Source: Desulfovibrio sp. ZJ369 (lineage in GTDB: Bacteria > Desulfobacterota > Desulfovibrionia > Desulfovibrionales > Desulfovibrionaceae). From it: a DNA stretch of 64,000 nt. Positions 14,885-61,890 of this stretch are shown piece after piece; within the stretch, counting starts at the first letter, position 1; each line of letters opens with the position of its first letter. The notes beneath the pieces were generated by a model, which was not told where the DNA came from, did no database searches, and was given only the letters and a program-made list of their open reading frames with translations. The position numbers were made by a program, and so were the translations under genes. The stretch spans positions 1-64,000 of the forward strand of contig NZ_JAAKEI010000002.1 of NCBI RefSeq assembly GCF_011039085.1, in the 5' to 3' direction.

Positions 14885-14970
14885 AGCGTTTAGCCAGAGC
14901 ATTTTTTGATTGAAAATGGATATTTTTAATCAAAAAATGCTCTGGCTGATTTCATTGGCAAAACGCTCTA
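14882..14970. repeat. Nested palindromic TAGAGC element shared by two convergent stops
   Basis: The outer arms TAGAGCGTTT and AAACGCTCTA enclose an inner perfect palindrome, AGAGCATTTTTTGATT paired with AATCAAAAAATGCTCT. The first TAG is the copA stop. The last CTA is the reverse complement of the TAG stop of the convergent MBL-fold gene. The structure looks like one element inserted into another and could end transcription from both sides. Confidence 0.85.
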
Positions 14971-21571: not shown

Positions 21572-23092
21572 ATGAGCACGCCCCTCACATCCGCCCGGAT
21601 TTCGCCGGAAGCCGCGCAGAACGAAAATGCCCGCCGGGAGCTTCAAGGCCGCCTGGCCGGGCTCGGCGATCTCAACGGCAGGAAGCTCAGCCCCGAACAA
21701 AAGGCCAGGAAGCTGCGCGAGGCTTGCGAGGGCTTCGAGTCGGTTTTTATCCAGAAAATGTGGCAGGAAATGCGCAATACCCTGCCCAAGGGGGGATTGC
21801 TCCAGGGGCGCGAGGAGAAATTCTGGCAGGACATGTATGATCAGGAATTGTCCAAAAAAATGACAAGCGCCGGAGGCATTGGCCTGGCGGATATGATGTA
21901 CGCCCAGCTTTCGCGCAATCTGGTCTCGGCCAGCCGGAGCGCGGCCGGGACCGGCCATGCGCCGGCTTTCACGCCCGGCGCGGCGCCGCTTCTGCCCGCG
22001 GCGGCCGAGGATCCGGCCGGGAGAGCGCAAAAAGCCCCGGATGTTTCCACGGCTTCGGCTGATCCGGATTCGGCGGCCGCGGTATACGAAGGCGTCGCGC
22101 CGCAGATCGGAGGGCTGGAAGCGGATCGGGCCGCAGGCGCGCCGCATGCCGCCGCAACGGCGGCAAACATGGATACGGGCGACACGTCGTCTCCTCTTTC
22201 GCTCAATCCGCCGGAGGTGGAGCAGGCTTTGGCGGCTTTGCGCGCGCAACAGGCACTGGCGGCTCCGGCCCAGGCGCATATTGAGGTTGTTCCCGCCGGT
22301 CAGGGCGCGCGGCGTCGGCACGAGCCGTCAGGTCTGGAGCTCGCCCGCATGGCCCGGCTTGAGGCGGGCACAAAGCTCGGCCCCTCTGGCGTGCGGCCGC
22401 CGCTGCAAAGCGCGCCGCGGCAGGCGGGCCCTGCATTCCAGGCCACGCAGGAAACGGCAAACCTCGCACCCGGCACAGGGGAGCACGCGGCAACGGTCGG
22501 GCCGGGAGCGCAGACGGGCATCGGCACCGCGGCAGCCGTGCAGGCAGCCATGCAGCCGGGCGTCAGGTCCGCGCCGCAACCGGCTGCCGCGCTTTCCACC
22601 CAGCCCGTGGGCACAGTGAGCGCGTCCGGGCCGAGCTCAGCCCAGGTGCCGGGGCAGGCCGCCGTGCAGGCAGAAAGCGCGCAACAGGCGCAGCCCGCGT
22701 CGGTTGCGCAAGCCGCTCAAGAGGCCCCGGCCCCGCAGATCCGCAAGGTACGCTACACAACCAATATTCCTCCCAAGGGGCGGAACAGACGCAGTCAGCC
22801 CTTGATCCGCACCTTGAACACGGACGCGGCCGGCACAGGCAAGCGCGCCGGCGCGGGGCTGGCCGCCTATCATGCGGCCCAGGCGCAGGCCGCGCCGATC
22901 GCAAGCCCGGCTGCGGCCCAAAGTCCGGGCGGGACTTCACAGGCTTCAGGGCAGGCCCCGATTCCGGGCGCTCCCGTACAGGATGTCCGGGCCATGCAGC
23001 CGCTTGCCGCGCCCGCCGCGGGCAACGGAAGAAACCAGGCCGCGGGCAGTTATGTCATCCCGCCGCTGACAGCCGGGGATTTGCGCGGCTAG
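21572..23092 (+). CDS. flgJ: FlgJ-type rod-binding protein with long disordered tail
   Basis: Residues about 40-125 form the FlgJ N-terminal rod-binding domain (KLREACEGFESVFIQKMWQE, then GIGLADMMYAQLS), which helps cap and assemble the flagellar rod. The enterobacterial muramidase domain is absent. In its place are about 370 residues of Ala/Gln/Pro/Gly-rich low-complexity sequence ending SYVIPPLTAGDLRG. Total length is 506 aa, against about 100-120 for other single-domain versions. The tail has no recognisable fold and could be a periplasmic linker or a length-variable spacer. The TAG stop belongs to a palindromic repeat. Confidence 0.8.
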   Translation: MSTPLTSARISPEAAQNENARRELQGRLAGLGDLNGRKLSPEQKARKLREACEGFESVFIQKMWQEMRNTLPKGGLLQGREEKFWQDMYDQELSKKMTSAGGIGLADMMYAQLSRNLVSASRSAAGTGHAPAFTPGAAPLLPAAAEDPAGRAQKAPDVSTASADPDSAAAVYEGVAPQIGGLEADRAAGAPHAAATAANMDTGDTSSPLSLNPPEVEQALAALRAQQALAAPAQAHIEVVPAGQGARRRHEPSGLELARMARLEAGTKLGPSGVRPPLQSAPRQAGPAFQATQETANLAPGTGEHAATVGPGAQTGIGTAAAVQAAMQPGVRSAPQPAAALSTQPVGTVSASGPSSAQVPGQAAVQAESAQQAQPASVAQAAQEAPAPQIRKVRYTTNIPPKGRNRRSQPLIRTLNTDAAGTGKRAGAGLAAYHAAQAQAAPIASPAAAQSPGGTSQASGQAPIPGAPVQDVRAMQPLAAPAAGNGRNQAAGSYVIPPLTAGDLRG

Positions 23093-23125
23093 AGCGGTTT
23101 GCTGTTGCAAACGGCAACCGCTCTA
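23090..23125. repeat. TAGAGCGG-type palindromic element at flgJ stop
   Basis: TAGAGCGGTTTGCTGTTGCA continues to AACGGCAACCGCTCTA, 36 nt in all. Its first TAG is the flgJ stop and its last TA is followed by A, as if a TAA stop had been split by insertion at TA. The reverse complement of the same core ends the composite elements near rpoZ and upstream of dnaK. Confidence 0.85.
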
Positions 23126-29522: not shown

Positions 29523-30110
29523 AATTTTTCCGGGTCTGTTGCGTGTGACAATCGGTCAGCCTCGGCGCGTGCGCCGCAAGCCCCCATCCGTATATGCTGT
29601 CCGCGTTGTGCAGAAAACCCGCGCCGCGCTGAAGGCCGCAGCGATCCCTGGAGCATATTGCTAATTTCATGAGCAAAACGCTCTCACGGCTCCGCTGTAA
29701 GGCCGGCGCGAGGCGAGCAGGGTTGCGCCCGTTCGGGCGCAGCAAAGTACGGGCGCGGCAGCTGTAGCCCGCAAGGGCGTACAGATAGCGACACAGGGCT
29801 AGTGACAGCAACGATGCAGCGCGCTGCCCGCGCGAACGCAGAGCGCATGTTCACGAACACAAGGCCCTTGGCATGTTTTGCCGGGCGCAGGCGGTCAGCT
29901 TCCGCAACCGTCCGGGCAGTGGCGCTTTAGGGGACTGAAGCTGTTCTAGAGCATTTTGCTTTTGAAATTATTCAATTTCAAAAGCGGCGCTGCCATCATT
30001 TCCCCGCAAGCGGGACAAGCGCCTGAAAAGCGTGGTTTTCAGGCTCATTCGGCGCGGGCGTCCGCTCCCGCGGCCGCCAGAGCGGTTGCCGTTTTCAACA
30101 GCAAACCGCT
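29523..30110. other. Gene-poor stretch between rpoZ and dnaJ with several repeats
   Basis: This 588-bp region holds two palindromic family elements (29651-29684 and the composite 29947-30113). Between them is a GC-rich segment with small hairpins, for example GCGCCCGTTCGGGCGC near 29726. I find no protein frame with a ribosome site and no tRNA fold. Confidence 0.5.
29651..29684. repeat. Palindromic TAGAGC-family element
   Basis: GAGCATATTGCTAATTTCAT continues to GAGCAAAACGCTCT, a copy of the short palindrome class. The left end lacks the TA. Confidence 0.7.
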
Positions 30111-30113
30111 CTA
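29947..30113. repeat. 167-bp composite repeat, copy 1
   Basis: It begins TAGAGCATTTTGCTTTTGAA, then has an AATTATTCAATT hairpin. A GC-rich middle contains the CCTGAAAAGCGTGGTTTTCAGG hairpin. It ends with the AGAGCGGTTGCC...AAACCGCTCTA palindrome. A near-identical 148-bp copy lies at 41515-41662 and a 49-bp end fragment at 61842-61890. Its right edge supplies the rpoZ TAG stop. Confidence 0.85.
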
Positions 30114-34523: not shown

Positions 34524-35806
34524 GTTGTTCACGACAAGCCTTTCTTGATTTGCTGCATCAGGAAGTGGTGCCCGCCCTGGGCTGCACCGAGCCCATTGCC
34601 GTGGCCCTCGCGGCGGCCAGGGCGGCTGAAACCCTGGGGCGGCCGCCCGATCGCCTGACTGTGGAGGTCAGCGCCAATCTGCTCAAGAACGGCATGGGCG
34701 TCATGGTGCCCGGCGCCGGCGAGACGGGCCTGGCTATCGCGGCCGCTGTGGGAGCATTGGGCGGCAAAAGCGGGCTCGGCCTGGAATGTCTGCGGGATCT
34801 GACCCCGGAGCAGGTGGCGCGGGCCAAAGACATGGTCAGGACCGGCAAGGTGGAACTCAAACTGCCGGACAATGATCTGCTGCTTTTCTGCACCGTGACG
34901 GCCGTCAGTGGCGCGGACACGGCCACGGCCGAGCTGCGGGACAGTCATGCCAACATCACCCGGGTCTGGCGCGGGCAGGAGCTGATCTTTGAAAAAAAAC
35001 GGAGCGCCGGGGCCGACGGCCAGGCCGCGGACGGGGCAGCCTGGCCCCTGACGCTGGCGGGCATCCATGCCTTTGCCACCACGGCGCCCCTGGAGGAAAT
35101 ATCCTTTATTCTGGAAGCCGCGCGCATGAACCGCCAGGTGGCCGAGGAAGGTCTCAAAACCCAGTACGGTCTGGCCGTGGGCAAGAGCATGGACGCCCGG
35201 ATCCGGCAGCAAATGCTCTCCGACGACATGCCCAGCTTTGCGATCAAGCTCACGGCCGCGGCCGCGGACGCGCGCATGGCCGGGGTGATGATGCCGGTGA
35301 TGAGCAATTCCGGCAGCGGCAATCAGGGCATCACCTGCACCATGCCGGTGGTGGCCTGCGCCATCCGTCTGGAAAAGAGCGACGAGGAGCTGGCCAGGGC
35401 CCTGATCGTGAGCCATTTGGTCTCCATTCACATCAAGCACCACCTGGGGCGGCTCTCGGCTCACTGCGGCGCAATGGTGGCGGCCACGGCCGCGGCCTGC
35501 GGCATTGCCCTGCTCCTGGGCGGCGGGCTCAGGGAAATGGAAATGACCGTGCGCAATATGGTGGGCAATATGGCGGGCATGATCTGCGACGGGGCCAAAA
35601 GTTCCTGCGCGCTCAAGGTGGCTTCAGCCGTGGGCGCGGGCATTCAGGCCGCCATGCTGGCCATGAGCGGCTCGGCCGTGCCCGGCAATGAAGGTATTGT
35701 GGATGAGGACATTGAAACCTGCATCGCCAATCTGGGGCGTTTGGGCTCCACGGGCATGCGCGAGACGGATAAGGTGATTTTGGATATCATGCTGCATAAA
35801 ACCTAG
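34520..35806 (+). CDS. CyuA/CdsB-family L-cysteine desulfidase (UPF0597)
   Basis: This 428-aa protein belongs to the family of archaeal L-cysteine desulfidase and E. coli CyuA (YhaM). These use an oxygen-sensitive [4Fe-4S] centre to release sulfide, ammonia and pyruvate from cysteine; related enzymes deaminate serine. Conserved cysteines are visible as ALGCTEP (C22), GITCTMPV and ICDGAKSSCALK. The stop-start overlap with the transporter gene suggests uptake and breakdown of one substrate. The TAG stop is supplied by a double palindromic element shared with gatA. Confidence 0.82.
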   Translation: MSCSRQAFLDLLHQEVVPALGCTEPIAVALAAARAAETLGRPPDRLTVEVSANLLKNGMGVMVPGAGETGLAIAAAVGALGGKSGLGLECLRDLTPEQVARAKDMVRTGKVELKLPDNDLLLFCTVTAVSGADTATAELRDSHANITRVWRGQELIFEKKRSAGADGQAADGAAWPLTLAGIHAFATTAPLEEISFILEAARMNRQVAEEGLKTQYGLAVGKSMDARIRQQMLSDDMPSFAIKLTAAAADARMAGVMMPVMSNSGSGNQGITCTMPVVACAIRLEKSDEELARALIVSHLVSIHIKHHLGRLSAHCGAMVAATAAACGIALLLGGGLREMEMTVRNMVGNMAGMICDGAKSSCALKVASAVGAGIQAAMLAMSGSAVPGNEGIVDEDIETCIANLGRLGSTGMRETDKVILDIMLHKT

Positions 35807-35866
35807 AGCGGTTTGCTGATTTCATGAGCAAACCGCTCTGGCTGATTTCATGGGCAAAATGCTCTA
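35804..35866. repeat. Double palindromic element shared by two convergent stops
   Basis: It starts TAGAGCGGTTTGCTGATTTC, runs to ATGAGCAAACCGCTCT, and is followed by a half copy, GGCTGATTTCATGGGCAAAA then TGCTCTA. The left TAG ends the desulfidase gene and the right CTA is the reverse complement of the gatA stop. Confidence 0.88.
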
Positions 35867-41514: not shown

Positions 41515-41662
41515 TAGAGCATTTTGCTTTTGAAATTATTCAATTTCAAAAGCGGCGCTGCCATCATTTCGCCTGAAAAGCGTGGTTTTCAGGCTCATTC
41601 GGCGCGGGCGTCCGCTCCGCGGCCGCCAGAGCGGTTGCCGTTTTCAACAGCAAACCGCTCTA
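41515..41662. repeat. 148-bp composite repeat, copy 2
   Basis: It matches the copy at 29947-30113 almost base for base, apart from an 18-bp deletion (a CCCGCAAGCGGG mini-hairpin in copy 1) and a single-base indel. Both ends are TAGAGC/GCTCTA. It is followed by A, so the sequence reads TAA after the terminal TA. Confidence 0.88.
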
Positions 41663-58949: not shown

Positions 58950-59105
58950 ATGCGCTGGCATCGTGTAACGGCACACGATGCCAGCCCCTTTTTACGCGTC
59001 CTGCACGCCCTGTTCGTGCTTTTTGTGCTTCTGCCAGTGGTTCTTTTGCTGACAGGGTATTGGACAGGGCATGGCGGCCTGTTCCTTAGAGCATTTTGCT
59101 TTTGA
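58950..59105 (+). CDS. Possible small membrane peptide truncated by a repeat
   Basis: A 51-codon frame begins MRWHRVTAHDASPFLRVLHA and continues with one strongly hydrophobic helix (LFVLFVLLPVVLLLTG). It then reads into the perfect palindrome at 59087-59136, where it stops (RAFCF, TGA). AAGGA lies 10 bases upstream, farther than usual. It could be the remnant of a longer membrane-protein gene cut by the element, or a chance frame. Confidence 0.3.
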   Translation: MRWHRVTAHDASPFLRVLHALFVLFVLLPVVLLLTGYWTGHGGLFLRAFCF

Positions 59106-59136
59106 AATTATTCAATTTCAAAAGCAAAATGCTCTA
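59087..59136. repeat. Perfect 50-bp palindromic element (23-bp stem, 4-nt loop)
   Basis: TAGAGCATTTTGCTTTTGAA continues to ATT, then loop ATTC, then the exact reverse complement AATTTCAAAAGCAAAATGCT ending CTA. It is the most intact copy of the class that begins the 167/148-bp composites. Confidence 0.95.
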
Positions 59137-61400: not shown

Positions 61401-61541
61401 TAGAGCAATTTCACTTTGAAATTGCTCTGCTGACGCGAAAGCGGCAGCCGCCGCAACGCGGCGTACATTCAGGCGAAAACCGCGTTTTTCGCCTGAATGC
61501 CACCTTTGACTTTCAGAAAAAGTCAAAGGTGATCTGCTCTA
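61401..61541. repeat. 141-bp four-hairpin element, copy A
   Basis: Bounded by TAGAGCA and TGCTCTA. It has four inverted repeats in order: AGAGCAATTTCA/TGAAATTGCTCT; a GC-rich imperfect hairpin (GCGGCAGCCGCCGCAACGCG); CATTCAGGCGAAAA/TTTTCGCCTGAATG; and CACCTTTGACTTT/AAAGTCAAAGGTG. Confidence 0.92.
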
Positions 61542-61555
61542 GGGCCTGTTCACGC
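61542..61555 (+). mobile_element. Solo insertion-sequence terminus
   Basis: GGGCCTGTTCACGC matches the terminus of the insertion sequence next to cooF (111-124, opposite strand) and begins directly after the terminal TA of repeat copy A. No transposase frame follows. The 128 bp up to the second repeat are AT-leaning relic sequence. Confidence 0.6.
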
Positions 61556-61683
61556 TTATCAGAAAAAACCTTGTTTTTTCGGGGCACTGCCTCGTAATTT
61601 TGCCGGGGAAGGGATTTTCGTTGAACTCTTTAAAATAGTTGAGAATGCGCAGGATAGTGCTAACACGCCCCAGGGCGTTTTGC

Positions 61684-61824
61684 TAGAGCATTTTTACTTT
61701 GAAAATGCTCTGCTGACGCGAAAGCGGCAGCCGCCGCAACGCGGCGTACATTCAGGCGAAAACCGCGTTTTTCGCCTGAATGCCACCTTTGACTTTCATA
61801 AAAAGTCAAAGGTAATCTGCTCTA
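61684..61824. repeat. 141-bp four-hairpin element, copy B
   Basis: Same length and same order of four hairpins as copy A, with a few substitutions. Hairpin 1 reads AGAGCATTTTTACTTTGAAA then ATGCTCT, so both arms changed together relative to copy A. Such compensating change suggests that pairing is maintained. Confidence 0.92.
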
Positions 61825-61841
61825 ATAAAATTAGCTAAACG

Positions 61842-61890
61842 CTCCCGCGGCCGCCAGAGCGGTTGCCGTTTTCAGCAGCAAACCGCTCTA
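61842..61890. repeat. Composite-repeat end fragment
   Basis: CTCCCGCGGCCGCCAGAGCG continues to GTTGCCGTTTTCAGCAGCAA and ACCGCTCTA. It matches the right third of the 167/148-bp composites with one substitution in the loop. Confidence 0.85.

Follow-up and report, generated by a model that had tools for sequence, protein, structure and literature searches.

Twin 141-bp hairpin repeats in Desulfovibrio sp. ZJ369 are very probably copies of a MITE with IS630-like ends

The usual way to define a bacterial MITE is by its ends. In the passages of PMC2229807 and PMC3049150 that deal with it, RUP of the pneumococcus is described as a 107-bp MITE attributed to IS630-Spn1, with about 108 intergenic copies, ends like those of the resident IS630, a TA target, and insertions in IS genes. 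Correia/NEMIS, ERIC, and other bacterial MITEs are given in the corresponding part of PMC2229807 as 100 to 200 bp long, several of them TA ended, with highly base-paired transcripts; most, though not CIR, are said there to form a stem-loop in which the 5′ end pairs with the 3′ end. Nezha is named among bacterial MITEs in the relevant section of PMC3733652. The pneumococcal BOX elements are presented, where PMC3049150 treats them, as modular, structured, small mobile repeats attributed to ISSpn2. Members of the IS630 family (IS630, ISY100) insert at TA and duplicate it, according to the portion of PMC2170065 concerned with target sites.

The window analyzed here is a stretch of 64,000 nucleotides from Desulfovibrio sp. 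ZJ369. An earlier note had reported in it two 141-bp elements, 142 bp apart, each with four consecutive hairpins, and had proposed that they were mobile non-autonomous elements or structured RNAs. On recheck, the coordinates were correct, as were the shared length (141 bp) and the distance between the copies (142 bp); the copies, at 61401-61541 and 61684-61824, are 96% identical. The change said to affect both arms of hairpin 1 is also present (AGAGCAATTTCA/TGAAATTGCTCT versus AGAGCATTTT/AAAATGCTCT). Consecutive hairpins are found in each copy, but the energy model gives five rather than four, since the second of the reported hairpins is two adjacent ones (H2a and H2b). Their order in each twin is H1, H2a, H2b, H3, H4, and H1 consists of the left terminal repeat with its own inverse copy directly after it. 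Copy 1 folds at -73.2 kcal/mol (z -9.95) and copy 2 at -67.7 kcal/mol (z -8.25), and for neither was any of 200 shuffles equally stable. The opposite strand of copy 2 also folds strongly as a single strand (z -9.04). The features are as follows.

61401..61541, + strand: copy 1 of the element (141 bp, counting the TA on either side), with a rare AATTTC/GAAATT version of hairpin 1
61684..61824, + strand: copy 2 of the element (141 bp, again counting the TA on either side), near the genome-wide consensus
61685..61711, + strand: H1 of copy 2, the left terminal repeat AGAGCATTTT.. and then its inverse copy (copy 1: 61402-61428)
61712..61731, + strand: H2a of copy 2, with a GAAA loop (copy 1: 61429-61448)
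61732..61746, + strand: H2b of copy 2 (copy 1: 61449-61463)
61749..61782, + strand: H3 of copy 2, CATTCAGGCGAAAACCGCGTTTTTCGCCTGAATG (copy 1: 61466-61499)
61785..61813, + strand: H4 of copy 2 (copy 1: 61501-61531)
61816..61824, + strand: right terminal repeat of copy 2, TCTGCTCTA, in which the left-end TAGAGCA is inverted (copy 1: 61533-61541)
61670..61683, + strand: left piece of the split palindromic repeat that is the target of copy 2
61825..61844, + strand: right piece of the same split repeat

A single reading frame of at least 60 amino acids (68 amino acids long) crosses copy 1, and none crosses copy 2. No tRNA or tmRNA was found in the window, and the element had no match in the phage and plasmid collections. 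The 142-bp gap between the twins seems to have no meaning, since it is largely another repeat and the twins sit in different targets. That other repeat, which makes up most of the spacer (61542-61683), is itself dispersed and has the ends GGGCCTGTTCAC.../...GCTAACACGCCC; a copy at L092, 92.6% identical over 135 bp, again abuts a 141-bp element. For a gene neighboring the element, the best related locus among 80 loci, a set from which records near the source genome are possibly absent, is from an uncultured Mailhella (62%).

We searched the whole genome (G000; 2,883,226 bp in 108 contigs) with a 34-bp core pattern, allowing up to three mismatches, and used the reversed pattern as a control. The core had 95 matches, 45 forward and 50 reverse, against none for the reversed control; hence, the likeness of the twins is not due to chance. 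The palindromic H3 pattern gave 90 forward and 92 reverse matches, with no control matches. The 95 sites were retrieved as 91 stretches, and 90 copies were complete, the other 5 being without one end. Among the complete copies, 84 are 141 bp long, 4 are 140 bp, and 2 are 142 bp; they comprise 62 distinct sequences, and most copies are near-identical. We concluded that the twins are 2 of 95 dispersed copies and not a pair.

The element begins TAGAGC and ends GCTCTA. Its perfect terminal inverted repeat, TAGAGCA...TGCTCTA, is only 7 bp long, below the 15 to 30 bp often quoted, as in the part of PMC3733652 that treats such repeats. Flanking bases were counted in the 89 of 90 complete copies with 10-bp flanks. 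Base -1 is C or T in 74 of these copies, and base +1 is A or G in 87. For 68 older relatives from seven other genomes, the corresponding numbers are 66 and 67; the left end of 52 of them carries TA, as does the right end of 55. The insertion target is YTAR.

Empty sites for copy 2, L043, and L048 show that TA is duplicated on insertion. The flanks of copy 2, joined through one TA, correspond to the unbroken repeats L021, L061, L080, and L099 (94 to 97% over 31 to 36 bases), and these are not the sole unbroken copies of that repeat. L043 splits another copy of the short palindromic repeat, and its flanks, likewise joined through one TA, match unbroken repeats. L048 (L203, G000:C36) is inserted in a decayed IS630-type transposase gene; the joined site reads, in frame, KMWSKVKQLVRGLKA, compared with KMWSKVKQLLRGMKA in the related L200 transposase. 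No spanning DNA match passed the filter for the joined flanks of window copy 1, L095, or L048; by eye, L095 also lies within a copy of the short palindromic repeat. One copy, L066 (G000:C52), is bordered on each side by TT rather than TA and may have duplicated a target other than TA.

The window also contains palindromes of 36 to 50 bp with [TC]AGAGC...GCTCT[AG] ends at 14895-14944, 23090-23125, 30078-30113, and 35804-35840, and further short palindromes of this kind at 41627-41662, 59087-59136, and 61855-61890. Several of the seven are near-identical. They resemble terminal-repeat hairpins standing alone, from the element's own mobility system.

PF13358 (IS630-type transposase) has nine matches in the genome. 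A complete IS630 element of 998 bp lies at L200:1031-2028, and its second reading frame scores 136.8 bits on the NCBIfam model transpos_IS630 (NF033545; cut-off, 100). The transposase, at L200:1080-1980, is divided between two reading frames that overlap close to a stretch of eight A, and programmed frameshifting is possible there. Many contigs of the draft break off toward the 3′ end of the IS transposase gene, as one would expect of an element present in multiple copies. The L200 element has TAGAGCATTTTCACTTT... at its left end and TAGAGTATTTTGCTTTTAACTTTTTACATA read inward from the right, and other IS copies have TAGAGCATTTT at the right end. The left end of the 141-bp element matches that of the L200 element at 18 of 22 positions, the first 17 bp being identical, and the right ends match in register at 20 of 28 positions, or 21 of 28 with other IS copies (71 to 75%). 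Over window positions 1-61300, read on both strands (about 122,500 positions), these three scores were equaled or exceeded at 5, 1, and 0 positions. For relatives of the element in G016, the right end matched the IS right end at 18 of 24 positions, a match that 10 window positions equaled. Related IS copies with similar ends occur in G024 (L289:142-1138, 997 bp; L302:1399-2393, 995 bp). In G115, which belongs to another genus of the family, a 998-bp PF13358 element (L398:1-998) has the ends of the older elements: it matches L248 of G058 at all 22 positions of the left end and at 20 of 22 positions of the right end, and none of 122,556 window positions does as well.

PF13358 had no matches in seven of nine genomes rich in older relatives of the element (G016, G055, G058, G054, G028, G022, and G020), and none in G127 and G132. 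Having at least 10 covariance-model matches to the element was not associated, among 61 genus genomes, with matching the L200 transposase (7/20 versus 13/41; p 1.0). An IS630 was not found wherever the elements abound, and such co-occurrence does not define a MITE. Given the element-rich genomes without PF13358 and the lack of association, the mobilizer either was lost there or is a different one. We read this as loss of the IS while the MITEs persisted; a second mobilizer in the element-rich genomes without IS630 is possible. In the genome with 95 copies, the likeness of the ends suggests that the element probably borrows the resident IS630-type transposase.

The element is small (under about 300 bp) and without coding capacity, has many copies, terminal inverted repeats, and a target duplication, and has ends that match those of an autonomous IS630 in the same genome, the L200 element. 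Of the two proposals in the earlier note, that of mobile non-autonomous elements is well supported by the 95 dispersed copies, the TA duplication, the empty sites, and the IS630 with similar ends. We put at about 0.9 the probability that the twins are two insertions of a MITE mobilized in trans by IS630-family (Tc1/mariner-like, DDE) transposases, as judged from sequence. The transposase would bind the TAGAGC...GCTCTA ends, excise the element, and paste it into TA; such cut-and-paste in trans would follow the biochemistry of ISY100 as set out in the part of PMC2170065 that covers it.

We then asked where the copies lie relative to genes, calling genes with a home-made rule for open reading frames and codon usage rather than from annotation and leaving out 7 of the 91 stretches that were too near a contig end. 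In 29 of the remaining 84 copies, the element supplies the exact TAG stop of a neighboring predicted gene (19 by the left end, 9 by the right, and 1 by both). Of the rest, 3 run into a predicted gene and 52 lie elsewhere in intergenic DNA. For 24 of the 29 stop-supplying copies, TA followed by A or G (C or T for opposite-strand genes) stands at the far end, so that the empty site is itself an in-frame TAA or TAG, which means that these copies went into pre-existing stop codons. The remaining five have a changed end or do not fit the rule. In the window, 14 YTAR sites lie at stop codons, 68 are intergenic, and 22 are coding. Compared with the noncoding sites among these (14/82, or 14/68 as stop/intergenic), the element shows an excess at stop codons (29/81, or 29/52; Fisher p 0.008). 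When the null is instead built from sites flanking the elements (8 stop, 218 intergenic), p falls to 1.6e-12; that null is biased, the nearest stop having already gone to the element, and we prefer the window null. Among the older copies, 18 of 68 are at stop codons. Both TAA and TAG contain a TA target, and TAG is also how the element begins, so an interrupted stop would stay TAG and insertions there would be tolerated. This would be a simple route for inserting beside genes harmlessly. About a third of the copies sit in stop codons, where the hairpins would lie in the 3′ untranslated region.

Neighbor orientation was scored for 61 copies; the count leaves out 22 without at least one called neighbor, 1 inside a predicted gene (L066, the sole such copy), and 11 near a contig end. 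No orientation bias was seen relative to codirectional neighbors (25 sense to both, 20 antisense). Convergent neighbors outnumber divergent ones, 13 to 3 (p 0.02). Selection against harmful insertions may explain the placement without any targeting.

Relatives of the element were matched by DNA search in 15 of 61 genomes of the genus. The covariance-model search that the earlier note had suggested gave matches in 28 of these 61 and in 33 of 119 genomes and 20 of 44 genera of the family, among which weak matches may be unrelated hairpin repeats, the model E-values being rough. From 60 divergent loci, 12 were left out (insertions, truncations, and misfits), and the resulting alignment, A1, contains 48 full-length divergent elements from six genomes plus both window copies. 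RNAalifold alone found 26 pairs, 15 of them with a change on both sides. Since it missed part of the hairpins, we set 38 pairs by hand from single-sequence folds, omitting H2a because of a one-column shift between subfamilies. With this structure, 94.2% of cells in A1 are paired, compared with 86.8% (standard deviation, 0.4) after shuffling, a control that ignores relatedness; sliding the partners, a control that accounts for relatedness but favors a sequence-derived structure, left at most 47.4% paired. The earlier note had named covariation in a larger alignment as the check on structure, and it is present: 20 of the 38 pairs changed on both sides across seven genomes, compared with 10.4 in shuffles, and none of 500 shuffles reached any of five covariation measures. 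The H3 core GAAAACC.CG.TTTTC, or a near version, is found again in many relatives. We concluded that the same row of hairpins is kept in related species despite letter changes. Some older elements appear to have other GC-rich hairpin repeats inserted in or near their hairpin loops (L231, L235, L238, L240, and L241 in G055), and the same kind of loop insert is seen in L214, L216, and L221 of G016; similar inserts occupy the same place in several copies. Hairpin-targeting insertion by these GC-rich repeats is possible.

Some relatives have other ends. The five G063 elements in our set start with TAGTACACAG, and three of the five end in GTACTA. Many elements of G122, G137, and G165 start with TTAC[AT]GAT and end in ATCAGTAA, readable as Y-TA-...-TA-R, and other G122 elements have TAGAGC ends. 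The variant-ended elements of these four genomes are L378, L379, L383 to L386, L388 to L390, and L392 to L396. Their bodies were compared with elements of G055, G058, G054, G016, and G028 and with window copy 2. L384 (G137) matched at 77% over 88 bases (E 2e-12) and L394 (G063) at 81% over 57 bases (E 1e-7); shuffles in blocks of two reached an E-value of 0.3 at best. The best matches were to G028 and G055 elements and start at base 49 or 54, past the left terminal hairpin, so the interiors are homologous and the ends are different. By these alignments, a homologous hairpin body is present in several genera of one bacterial family under three different terminal repeats.

First end system of the body: TAGAGC...GCTCTA
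Second end system: TAGTAC...GTACTA
Third end system: TTAC[AT]GAT...ATCAGTAA

The TAGTAC and TTAC[AT]GAT ends imply other autonomous partners. Among the PF13358 loci of G063, G122, G137, G165, G009, and G115, matches to TAGTAC or TTACTGAT ends were loose and single, and the six of these loci scanned for paired ends had no inward pair. The hairpin body (H2 to H4) would be a module older than any single pair of ends. It is conceivable, if rather doubtful, that the body, with its core GCCGAAAACC.CG.TTTTCGGC, forms a structure-conserved module in its own right, one that has used at least three end systems and is kept through selection on transcripts in 3′ untranslated regions. If so, a MITE would pass as a gene end once insertion into a stop codon had put its body in the 3′ untranslated region.

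What keeps the body folded can be explained in two further ways. The stronger is that upkeep is purely mutational, with template switching repairing one arm from the other and flipping loops without any selection; we regard this as a serious contender, at somewhat less than even odds. The hairpins are near-perfect DNA palindromes with loops in both directions, so template switching could give paired changes without selection. Among young copies, the loops of H1 (CACTTTG/CAAAGTG; L029 and L063) and H3 (CCGCG/CGCGG; L021) occur in both orientations, and flipped loops recur in older elements (H1 in L234, L244, L246, and L247; H3 in L230). Changes in both arms are seen in young copies too, in H1 of window copy 1 and L065 and in H4 of L068. 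Loop flips and two-arm changes are what template switching or cruciform processing would produce. On its own, however, this process leaves unexplained the likeness of hairpin order and H3 core across genera and the excess of G.T over A.C mispairs in older copies described below. Arm-to-arm template switching may account for part of the upkeep, possibly helped by selection for an RNA structure that does no harm or gives protection.

Less probable is that the element is a structured noncoding RNA, the body being selected as a transcript (for protection of the 3′ untranslated region, as an RNase site, or as a regulator) and mobility serving only to spread it. The covariation across seven genomes, the body common to several genera under different ends, the placement at stop codons, and the 13-to-3 excess of convergent neighbors would all suit such an RNA, but the lack of orientation bias and the loop inversions, which suggest that arm copying can itself yield covariation, count against it. 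We counted mispairs by a strand-blind rule. In 119 older elements (the 48 full-length ones and 71 more, some of them weak model matches), unique mispairs were G.T in 97 cases and A.C in 58 (p 0.002 if taken as independent). This excess hints at tolerance of G.U on one strand and hence at RNA; counted by genome, it is 16 to 7 (p 0.09), and relatedness or mutation bias may possibly lie behind it. The excess is absent from the young copies of this genome, where unique mispairs were G.T 9 and A.C 12, with no strand bias. Distinct changes in young copies include 17 C>T and 11 G>A. Rfam had no match at gathering score in the whole window; the sub-threshold matches to microRNA, sRNA, and snoRNA families are at the level of chance (E 0.3 to 9.4). 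Thus, of the structured RNA proposed in the earlier note, the G.T excess in older families is a hint, but no Rfam family supports it, and of the proposed selection on structure, the covariation is borne out in the larger alignment, but covariation alone is not proof of RNA function. Covariation in palindromic repeats is insufficient for inferring a functional RNA, and this family offers a data set for separating covariation produced by RNA selection from covariation produced by arm-to-arm copying.

Two other sources of mobility are very improbable. Some IS4/IS5-type (PF01609) groups also use YTAR targets, and PF01609 genes are present in this genome (nine matches) and in G028, G054, G055, and G058. 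However, TAGAGC-type ends paired 0.85 to 1.8 kb apart were found at none of the 9 loci in this genome and, by the same rule, at none of 17 loci in the other four, whereas 5 of 14 PF13358 loci were positive, L200 and L398 being whole elements with such ends. Contig ends cut through some of the loci. PF01609 as the mobilizer is largely refuted. A REP-type repeat moved by a RAYT (Y1/HUH) transposase would likewise be palindromic, intergenic, and present in many copies, but the TA duplication, the match of the ends to a DDE element, and the length of 141 bp, against the 20 to 40 bp given for REPs in the pertinent part of PMC3733652, make it equally improbable.

The element has the tested properties of a MITE, and we do not assign it to RUP, REP, or an Rfam family. 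As far as our open-access searches show, this family of elements is new, as is the body that its differently ended members share; judged from listings, the open-access literature yielded no MITE of Desulfovibrio. Because the ends change here while the folded interior stays, one can test directly whether structure is what preserves a small mobile element. IS630 is said, in the title of a 1991 report by Tenzen and Ohtsubo, to prefer TA in CTAG, which is compatible with the YTAR of the element; unlike the IS630 family, the element has no transposase gene. It resembles BOX, by description only, in being a modular, structured, small mobile repeat, in a different host. It is like RUP, as far as the quoted accounts describe RUP, in size class, copy number, IS630-like ends, TA target, and insertion in an IS gene (here L048); this likeness rests on published properties, and we claim no relation in sequence. 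Unlike RUP, it has four to five separate hairpins, a body found under varied ends, and frequent insertion in stop codons. Unlike the MITEs whose two ends pair, all of its hairpins are local, the left end folding back on an internal repeat of its own sequence.
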